Assembly: GCF_003073135.1 (NCBI RefSeq)
Contig: NZ_PGDQ01000021.1
Span: forward strand, 1 to 64,000
Reading direction: 5' to 3'
DNA from: Euzebya rosea
GTDB taxonomy: Bacteria > Actinomycetota > Nitriliruptoria > Euzebyales > Euzebyaceae
DNA: 64,000 nucleotides
Part shown: piece by piece, positions 28,022 to 31,306 of the stretch
How positions within the stretch are numbered: the stretch's first letter is position 1
How the letters are laid out: every line of letters begins with the position of its first letter
The notes under the pieces: generated by a model
Database searches by the model: none
Told to the model about the DNA's origin: nothing
What the model saw: the letters and a program-made list of their open reading frames with translations, nothing else
Program-made: the position numbers and the translations under genes

Positions 28022-31000
28022 GTGCACAGACGTCTTCTGCTGCTAGCCCTCGTTCCCTGCCTGCTGGCGTCGCTGCTGGTCGCTGCCCCCGTGGCGGCGC
28101 ACCCCGAACGGCCGGCGGAGTTCCCCGCCGGGGCGCTGGGCACACCGGCGTACCGCTTCGACGGGGACACCCACGTGGTGTGCAAGCCCGACACCGAGGC
28201 GCGCCTGCAGGTGCTGCCGGATGCGCTGCGCACCCGCAACGAGGCGCTGCTGGAGGACTGTGCGTTCGAGCACATCAACGAGGCGATCGCCGAGGTCGAG
28301 GCCAACGGCGAGCAGGGCAGCCGCATCCTGGTGATGCCCGGCGTGTACCGCGAGGAGCCCTACGTGGGCGCCGTCGACCCGGCGTGCCTCGAGATCGAGC
28401 CCCCCGCCGACGACGAGGGCGGCGGCATCATGGACATCGGCGCCATCCCCCTGCCGCCGATGCAGCAGCACGAGCTGTACCAGCAGGAGGACCCCACCGA
28501 GGACGAGGGCAACAACAACCCCGGCGCGCTGGTGCTGTCCTACGAGCAGCAGCGGGAGTGCCCGTTCCTGCAGAACCTCATCCCGATCCTCGGCGACACC
28601 GACGGTGACTCGGTCTGCGACAACGCGCTGTGCAACCTGCAGATCGAGGGCACCGGCGCCTCACCGCTTGACACCGTGATCGACGGCGACTACTCCCAGC
28701 TCAACGGCATCCGCGCCGACCGGGCCGACGGGCTGTACCTGCGGAACTTCACCGTCCAGCGGTTCGAGTTCAACGCCGTGTACATCATCGAGTCCGACGG
28801 GTTCGTCTTCGAGGAGATGATCACCCGCTGGAACGACGAGTACGGGTTCCTGTCCTTCGCCGTGGACCACGGGCTGTACCAGAACTGCGAGGGGTACGGC
28901 AACGGCGACTCCGCCATCTACCCGGGGTCGGCGACCGACCTCAACCAGGACGCGGGCCTCTTCGACGACAACGAGGGCCTGCGCTTCGGCACCGAGATCC
29001 GCGGCTGCCGTGGCCACCACAACACCCTCGGCTACTCCGGCACCGCCGGCAACTCCGTGCACACCCACCACAACGAGTTCGACCGCAACCTCGTCGGCGC
29101 GGCGACCGACTCGTTGTTCCCCGACCACCCCGGCCTGCCGCAGGACCACGCCTACTTCCACGACAACCTGTTCCACTCCAACAACACCGGCTACTACGAG
29201 CGTGACCTGCTGGCCGGCAAGTGCACCGGTCCGTTCAGCGAGCGCGACTACGACGAGGGGATCGTCTGCCCGGTGGTGCCCCTTCCCGTCGGGACCGGCC
29301 TGGTGCTGGCCGGCGGCAACTACAACCTCTTCGAGAACAACCGCGTCTACGACAACTGGCGCCAGGGCACCTTCCAGTTCTTCGTGCCGGCGACCCTTCG
29401 TGGCGAGGACGCCCCCGACAAGCAGTTCGACACCTCCAACTTCAACACCTGGCGCGGGTCGACCTACGGCGTGAACATCAACGGCCTGGCCCAGCCCAAC
29501 GGCACCGACATGGTGTGGGACGGCGAGGGCGAGGGGAACTGCTGGACCGACAACGTCGGCATCGACGGTGGGGCCCCCACCACCGCTGTCGGCGACGGGT
29601 CGGGTGTGTTCCAGGTCCCGGGCATCCCGCTGCCCGGATGTGACCCCCGTCCGCCGTTCACGCCCGGACCGGGCATCGTCACGGCCGCGCAGTGCGCCTC
29701 CTACTCCCGTGGCAGCGAGCCCAACCCGCCCGGCTGCAACTGGTTCTCCACCCCGGAGCCGCCGGCGGACCGCACCCCGGAGGGGCCGACGGTCGACCGC
29801 CTGGCCGGTGCCGAGCGCATCGAGACCAACCTGATGACCTCCCGTGAGGCCTTCCCGGGTCAGTCCGCCAACGTCGTGCTGGCGACGGCCGACAACTTCG
29901 CCGACGCCCTTGCCGGTGCCCCGCTGGCGGCGCACCTCGAGGCCCCCCTGCTGATCACCCCGACCGGCGGCCTCGACGACCGCGTCGCCGAGGAGATCAC
30001 CCGCTTGGGTGCCCAGCGTGTCTGGCTGCTCGGTGAGACGGCCGCCCTGTCCGACACCGTGGTCGCCGACCTCGAGGCGCTGGGGATCCGCGAGATCACC
30101 CGCGTCGGCGGCGCGAACCGCTTCGAGACGGCCACCCTGATCGCCGGGATGATCGGCTCCGGCAACGCCTTCCTCGTGGAGGGTGGCGACTTCGCCTCCG
30201 CGCTGTCGGCCTCCGCCGTCGGTGCGCTCGTCGGACGGCCCGTGCTGCTGACGTCGGCCGACACCATCTCCCCCGAGCTCGAGACCTTCCTCGAGGGCGG
30301 CCTGATGGTCGACATCCGCCTGGTCGGGTCGGCCGTGTCCGACGCGGTCATGGCGCAGCTGCCGGTCGTGCAGCCCCGCATCGTCGACATCGAACGGACC
30401 GCAGGGGCCGACGCGGTGGAGACGTCCGCGATGATGGCCGAGCTCGGCGTGCAGATCGGCCAGGACGACACGGAGCTGTGGATCGCCACGGTCGACAACT
30501 GGCCGGACGCGCTCGGCGCAGCCGCGGCTGCCGCCGTCGACGAGGGCGTCCTGCTGCAGGTGCCGGCCTCGCTGGACGGCGAGTCGCCGGTGCTCGACTA
30601 CATCACCGAGAAGAACTCGATCCTCGAGCACATCCGCATCGCCGGTGGGACCGCCGCCGTCAGCCAGGAGGTGGAGGACACCATCCTCACCGCCACCGGC
30701 GGCGTCACCGGCGACGTCCGCGGAGACCGGTCGCACGGGACCTTCGTGTCCACCGGATCCTTCGCCCCGCTCCCCGACGTCGACCAGGCCTACGCCGGCG
30801 TCACCGGCACCGCCACGATGGTCCGGACCATCCACGGCACCACCGAGGTCGAGGTCCTGGTCGAGGGCATGCCGGCCAACACCTTCGCGCCGGTCCACCT
30901 TCACGTGGACTCGTGCGACGTGGCCGGCGGTGACCACTTCCAGTTCGTGCCCGGTGGATCGATGATGCCGCCCAACGAGATCCACCCGCGCTTCACCTCC

Positions 31001-31306
31001 GACGCGGTCGGCGTGGGTCGCGGCACCGACACGGCGTTCGCCATCGCCGGCAACGACGCCCGCTCGGTGGTCATCCACGACCCCGACGGCAACAAGGTCG
31101 CCTGCGCGGAGTTCGACGGACCCGAGATCCCCGACGGTGCGGCGACCACCCCGGCGCTGGCCTCGTTCATGGCACCGGAGCTCGCGATGGGCGACGACGA
31201 CGGCGGCATGCCGGCGTGGCTGTGGTACGCGGTGGCCGGCTGGATCATGGTCAGCCTGCTGCTGGGCTGGGTCCCGCGTCGGGCCCGTGCCCGTCGGGCT
31301 GGCTGA
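28022..31306 (+). CDS. secreted beta-helix / CWB2 / SOD-like protein with C-terminal membrane anchor
   Basis: A 1094-residue exported protein. A signal peptide (about 1-25, ending VAAHPE) precedes a large region with right-handed beta-helix character (about 40-560; for example LYLRNFTVQRFEFNAVYIIE and repeated N/G-rich turns). Three CWB2 units follow from about 590 (DRLAGAERIETN) to 905. Next comes a Cu/Zn-superoxide-dismutase-like domain (PVHLHVDSC, GGDHF, NEIHPRF, SVVIHDPDGNKVACAEF). The end is a membrane helix (AWLWYAVAGWIMVSLLLGWV) plus an Arg-rich tail. GTG 28022 follows AAAGG. Beta-helix folds often bind or cut polysaccharides; activity is not proven here. Confidence 0.85.
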   Translation: MHRRLLLLALVPCLLASLLVAAPVAAHPERPAEFPAGALGTPAYRFDGDTHVVCKPDTEARLQVLPDALRTRNEALLEDCAFEHINEAIAEVEANGEQGSRILVMPGVYREEPYVGAVDPACLEIEPPADDEGGGIMDIGAIPLPPMQQHELYQQEDPTEDEGNNNPGALVLSYEQQRECPFLQNLIPILGDTDGDSVCDNALCNLQIEGTGASPLDTVIDGDYSQLNGIRADRADGLYLRNFTVQRFEFNAVYIIESDGFVFEEMITRWNDEYGFLSFAVDHGLYQNCEGYGNGDSAIYPGSATDLNQDAGLFDDNEGLRFGTEIRGCRGHHNTLGYSGTAGNSVHTHHNEFDRNLVGAATDSLFPDHPGLPQDHAYFHDNLFHSNNTGYYERDLLAGKCTGPFSERDYDEGIVCPVVPLPVGTGLVLAGGNYNLFENNRVYDNWRQGTFQFFVPATLRGEDAPDKQFDTSNFNTWRGSTYGVNINGLAQPNGTDMVWDGEGEGNCWTDNVGIDGGAPTTAVGDGSGVFQVPGIPLPGCDPRPPFTPGPGIVTAAQCASYSRGSEPNPPGCNWFSTPEPPADRTPEGPTVDRLAGAERIETNLMTSREAFPGQSANVVLATADNFADALAGAPLAAHLEAPLLITPTGGLDDRVAEEITRLGAQRVWLLGETAALSDTVVADLEALGIREITRVGGANRFETATLIAGMIGSGNAFLVEGGDFASALSASAVGALVGRPVLLTSADTISPELETFLEGGLMVDIRLVGSAVSDAVMAQLPVVQPRIVDIERTAGADAVETSAMMAELGVQIGQDDTELWIATVDNWPDALGAAAAAAVDEGVLLQVPASLDGESPVLDYITEKNSILEHIRIAGGTAAVSQEVEDTILTATGGVTGDVRGDRSHGTFVSTGSFAPLPDVDQAYAGVTGTATMVRTIHGTTEVEVLVEGMPANTFAPVHLHVDSCDVAGGDHFQFVPGGSMMPPNEIHPRFTSDAVGVGRGTDTAFAIAGNDARSVVIHDPDGNKVACAEFDGPEIPDGAATTPALASFMAPELAMGDDDGGMPAWLWYAVAGWIMVSLLLGWVPRRARARRAG

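Follow-up and report, generated by a model that had tools for sequence, protein, structure and literature searches.

The gene at positions 28022–31306 (+ strand) of the window, the 64,000-nt stretch of Euzebya rosea DNA analysed here, probably encodes a doubly anchored surface protein, a membrane-to-wall strut that would place a Cu-only SOD outside the cytoplasm and close to the membrane, with the β-helix pointing outward. In this marine actinobacterium the gene is one uninterrupted ORF of 1094 aa that begins with GTG and has an AAAGG about 8 nt upstream of the start. The product opens with a predicted Sec-type signal peptide (residues 1–26, 28022–28099, +; hydropathy 2.56 over residues 1–28) whose predicted cut, AAPVAA/HPERP, follows an AxA and leaves His first. 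Next come a right-handed β-helix module starting with His27 of an HxER motif (residues 27–584, 28100–29773, +), three CWB2 repeats (residues 592–892, 29795–30697, +) and a Cu-only-SOD-like domain (residues 901–1031, 30722–31114, +). The chain closes with a linker that is 59–93% identical to that of the orthologues (residues 1032–1061, 31115–31204, +), a predicted membrane helix (residues about 1062–1085, 31205–31276, +) and the basic tail RRARARRAG with the stop codon (31277–31306, +), presumably cytoplasmic. The SOD-like domain had been described in the original prediction as lying beside the β-helix, but the CWB2 repeats stand between the two. None of the parts is new in kind, but their combination appears to be, and searches of the open-licence literature listed no account of the β-helix/CWB2/SOD/helix architecture.

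The full-length layout is present in 4 of the 101 genomes searched, that of E. rosea included, and the orthologues display 96% (G003), 74% (G001) and 66% (G022) identity. It is absent from G002, which belongs to the same genus, and from G004 of the same family; the case of G002 shows that the genus can do without this protein. The flanking genes are a divergent one, which we take from its translation to be gpsA, and on the 3′ side a gene that, again from its translation, is presumably cofC-like. These neighbours are conserved at the locus of G003, presumably E. pacifica, and not at the G001 or G022 MAG loci, that is, in one of the three orthologous loci checked, so gene context lends no support to the proposed role. 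In the plasmid collection, nine records match parts of the 1094-aa protein, none covering more than 80% of it, and phages gave a single weak match, to CWB2 only.

According to the structural model, the Greek-key β-barrel fold of SODs is present in residues 901–1031. The structure prediction that had been proposed as a check of a SOD-like fold in residues 905–1060 did return one, although the core of the domain proved to span residues 901–1031. AlphaFold2, supplied with an alignment of 41 rows (A4: the window and 40 of the 46 related loci from the species-level contig scan described below), built eight strands with a pLDDT of 91.3. VIA-align superimposed this model on the Cu/Zn SOD 2q2l with a Z-score of 13.6 and an rmsd of 2.4 over 120 aligned residues; each of the best 50 matches listed is either a SOD or the SOD-like domain of CCS, the copper chaperone. 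The best 50 Foldseek matches listed likewise contain nothing but SODs, the top one at E 9.4e-6. When the PDB was searched with a profile built from 24 relatives of the domain (A2), the matches included Cu/Zn SODs (1srd best, E 3.7e-11), SOD5 (2.9e-4) and DR_0644 (1.1e-3). The domain of the window itself matches no Pfam or NCBIfam SOD model; among the 24 A2 members, five match PF00080 (best E 3.6e-8) and seven match CHRD. Because both fold and profile retrieve SODs, and the four-part layout recurs in four genomes, the resemblance is not a matter of chance.

Sequence alignment places putative Cu ligands at H959, H961, H972 and H1019 and a putative disulfide at C965–C1028, corresponding to the four Cu ligands and the disulfide of SOD1. 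The H-L-H and the later His-Asp singled out in the original prediction are indeed found, at 959/961 and 1019/1020, and H972, C965 and C1028 complete the SOD signature. All four Cu histidines are present in 23 of 24 A2 rows and 41 of 41 A4 rows and, together with the cysteine pair, are conserved in all four orthologues. The situation at the zinc site differs: of the classical zinc ligands (H71, H80 and D83 in SOD1 numbering), the H80/D83 stretch is gapped and the H71 column unconserved when the profile is aligned with 1srd. The column of H988 contains His in 8 of the 24 A2 rows and Trp in 15. The electrostatic loop VII is likewise absent, as just eight residues lead from H1019 to C1028. Given this spacing and the lack of an H80/D83 counterpart, the domain seems to have lost both the zinc site and loop VII, two losses that PMC13017621 describes for Cu-only SODs. 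It fits the Cu-only SOD pattern, with the Cu site retained, these two elements apparently lost, and export suggested by the signal peptide. Thus, of the earlier label ‘Cu/Zn-SOD-like’, the SOD fold and the Cu ligand pattern stand, but counterparts of the zinc ligands are absent and ‘Cu-only-SOD-like’ is more exact. The same source gives E110/D113 as a Cu-only SOD hallmark; E986 (conserved in 23/24 A2 rows) and D994 (18/24) are candidate counterparts, mapped by sequence and with a different spacing.

The position of the catalytic Arg is occupied by Lys1025 in the window protein, by Met in one orthologue and by Pro in nine of 24 A2 rows, whereas the 41 rows of A4 have Arg in 24, Lys in 12 and another residue or a gap in five. 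The Arg-to-Lys change counts against an active Cu-only SOD, as do the missing match to a SOD family model and the existence of inactive SOD-fold proteins, namely dominin and some CSRPs (PMC13017621). The substitution and these precedents also speak for a different explanation, in which the SOD-fold domain has no catalytic role and acts as a spacer or binding module, in the way of oyster dominin or domain II of CCS, and the whole protein would be an adhesin or scaffold working through its β-helix. Indeed, conservation is highest in the β-helix: the two more distant orthologues are 81 and 75% identical there, compared with 73 and 62% in the SOD domain, and the β-helix occurs without the SOD domain in many genomes. 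However, the four Cu histidines and the cysteine pair have been retained in the four orthologues despite drift to 62% identity, and we consider a silent module rather unlikely.

The E. rosea genome has no match to PF00080 (4 of 14 controls positive) or PF02777 (12 of 14 controls positive) and a single match to PF09055 (Ni-SOD), a model found in 28 of 31 genomes and in none of the 14 controls. Since the assembly (5.5 Mb, 40 contigs) is 97.6% complete, the absence of PF00080 and PF02777 is no proof; both are also unmatched in G003, an assembly of two contigs. With the Fe/Mn and classical Cu/Zn models unmatched and PF09055 matched, the lineage appears to rely on Ni-SOD. That the fused domain might be the sole SOD of the organism was considered and rejected, Ni-SOD having been found. 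Three SOD-like domains were found in the E. rosea genome, on two presumably exported CWB2 proteins. The second of these proteins (L042, G000:C8:15811-24519, minus strand) is a 2902-aa frame with two SOD-like domains and CWB2 at the C-terminus, and by eye it also has what we take to be ThuA-like, glucose/sorbosone-dehydrogenase-like, PKD and plastocyanin-like parts. Its product may thus hold several copper sites within one wall protein.

Relatives of the SOD-like domain extend well beyond the fusion. A scan of genome contigs with one genome per species for 84,980 species, a collection that may not include the record of the window itself or those closest to it, yielded 46 loci, among which the fusion occurs only in L073, the same 9137-base MAG contig as G022. 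The lipobox pattern is found in 41 of the 45 free-standing relatives, which are consequently also expected at the membrane, and the Cu ligand pattern in 44. G002 has a lipoprotein-like SOD version (L045) in place of the fusion. In the phylum sample, the SOD-like domain is present in 22 of 396 genomes. Loci L074–L118 represent a wide family of actinobacterial SodC-like lipoproteins, many with Met/His/Asp-rich linkers, that occur in Acidimicrobiia, Streptomyces, Saccharopolyspora and Nocardioides.

In our phylogenetic tree, the fused clade (support 100/98) and the clade of the multidomain protein on contig C8 (100/97) are placed separately, implying that SOD-like domain and CWB2 were brought together on more than one occasion or that the pairing was reshuffled. 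The fused clade has the SodC-like lipoproteins as its nearest neighbours, with weak support (86/77). They share with it the Cu pattern and a PPNE[IV]H stretch, but are lipid-anchored and have neither CWB2 nor β-helix. Among published systems, DR_0644 comes nearest: this Cu-only SOD belongs to the S-layer complex SDBC of Deinococcus radiodurans, and PMC9823218 (PDB 8ACA) gives a measured activity of the complex. Both are Cu-only SOD folds in the cell envelope, DR_0644 being on the periplasmic side, and the A2 profile links them; DR_0644, however, forms a trimeric subunit of its own within a multilayered envelope with an SLH stalk, whereas the Euzebya domain is part of one polypeptide with CWB2 and a C-terminal helix. 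Candida albicans SOD5 (Cu-only, PDB 4N3T), also retrieved by the profile, has the Cu histidines, no zinc site and a shortened loop. In contrast to the Euzebya domain, it is a stand-alone fungal enzyme, secreted or at the cell surface, and its E110/D113 map onto that domain without certainty.

Three tandem PF04122 repeats (E 4.8e-35, three stretches) on a protein with a predicted signal peptide place the product among CWB2 surface proteins. The repeats match Cwp6, Cwp8 and SlpA-type chains in the PDB, the Clostridioides difficile proteins likewise having three CWB2 repeats. According to PMC5817068, C. difficile has 29 CWB2 proteins and these are held via the wall polymer PSII; the Euzebya protein adds a predicted membrane helix. 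The hydrophobic stretch (residues 1063–1085) reaches a Kyte–Doolittle maximum of 1.65, borderline with respect to the usual cut-off, and runs directly into RRARARRAG. The membrane helix and Arg tail foreseen at the C-terminus thus reappear as predicted features, and the helix and Arg cluster are maintained in all four orthologues despite drift (helix identity of 35–47% for the two more distant ones). E. rosea has 159 PF04122 matches, the best 150 of which fall into 99 gene clusters, and its count of at least 99 CWB2 gene clusters is far above that of C. difficile. Seven clusters run past the end of the stretch analysed, leaving 92 with a visible C-terminus, and a hydrophobic helix with a basic tail is found in two of them, the gene studied here and C9:114901. 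These calls are based on Kyte–Doolittle values alone, some higher values inside CWB2 folds having been dropped, with no basic tail after them. Accordingly, CWB2 with a membrane anchor is out of the ordinary in this genome, as had been proposed, in being rare; uniqueness was rejected in view of the second case. The latter, L169 (G000:C9:114901-115182, minus strand), has CWB2 together with a C-terminal hydrophobic helix and an RRRR tail, and its N-terminal part bears no resemblance by eye to the β-helix.

Alternatively, the C-terminal helix could be a temporary sorting signal that is removed, leaving the mature protein held by the wall only. Six β-helix relatives (L013–L018) carry an LPXTG-like motif near the C-terminus, followed by a helix and Arg in five of them (L015 ends at the contig end), and the E. 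rosea genome has four sortase matches. Yet, unlike LPXTG sortase substrates, the window protein and its three orthologues have no LPXTG-like or other conserved motif ahead of the helix, which argues against cleavage and makes a removable signal improbable.

PF13229 matches all 11 rows of the β-helix family alignment (A6; residues 228–360, E 9.1e-8, above cut-off, in the window protein), TIGR03805 matches eight, NosD (PF05048) five and TIGR04247 one. The β-helix profile retrieved no PDB chain at E ≤ 1, and an AlphaFold2 model from two rows (pLDDT 27.6) was not usable. Besides the LPXTG-like members, the Nonomuraea relative L041 apparently ends in several helices, and L220–L222, L224 and L226 have a plain C-terminus. 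Such LPXTG-like, multi-helix, plain or CWB2-SOD-helix ends indicate that the anchor has been exchanged around a conserved β-helix module. It is accordingly possible, if doubtful, that the protein chiefly acts on sugars or handles copper, as a NosD-like β-helix protein for which CWB2, SOD and helix are interchangeable modules for display or protection, a reading compatible with the doubly anchored strut. The NosD and TIGR03805 matches and the variable C-termini agree with it. However, PF05048 and PF13229 are both β-helix models, so weak NosD matches may mirror the fold alone, and the window member is unmatched by NosD at E ≤ 0.01.

A further feature of the family is its histidines. In 18 of 18 full-length members (the window protein, with HxER encoded at 28100–28111, L013–L018, L041 and L220–L226 among them), the mature chain is predicted to begin with the His of HxER, immediately behind an AxA-like site; the 11 A6 rows were hand-trimmed to start at this His and are hence not blind, so that the seven further full-length phylum hits are the better evidence, and in L225 HxER was found by pattern behind a less regular cleavage site. 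All 17 aligned rows have H27, H349 and H369. A speculative and, on balance, improbable extension is that these residues form a histidine-brace copper site on the β-helix, a second Cu site through which an outer copper oxidase or relay would be coupled, via the wall grip, to the superoxide or peroxide chemistry of a Cu-only SOD lying beneath it at the membrane. A structural role is equally possible for the three histidines. We know of no β-helix that serves as scaffold for a histidine-brace copper site, and searches of the open-licence literature for a histidine brace on a β-helix, or for a NosD right-handed helix with copper and histidine, found nothing.

For the doubly anchored strut, we propose that the chain is exported by Sec and cut by signal peptidase before His27, after which the C-terminal helix would act as a stop-transfer, with the Arg tail remaining cytosolic. 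The three CWB2 repeats would grip an anionic wall polymer, fixing the chain from membrane to wall. Since the SOD domain lies between the wall grip and the membrane helix in the chain, it is expected at the inner side of the wall, below the CWB2 grip and at most about 30 linker residues off the membrane, and the β-helix would be on the outer side. With one copper bound by the four histidines, the SOD domain could dismutate superoxide from the membrane or from outside, as an extracytoplasmic complement to the cytosolic Ni-SOD. Such a protein suggests how the space separating membrane and wall could be protected in a Gram-positive that lacks Fe/Mn and classical Cu/Zn SODs. Among CWB2 proteins it would also be a rare case of additional anchoring in the membrane, providing a single chain in which a membrane-to-wall bridge can be tested. 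Finally, it points to a wide, poorly described actinobacterial family of Cu-only-SOD-like proteins and to a β-helix family with an invariant mature N-terminal His.
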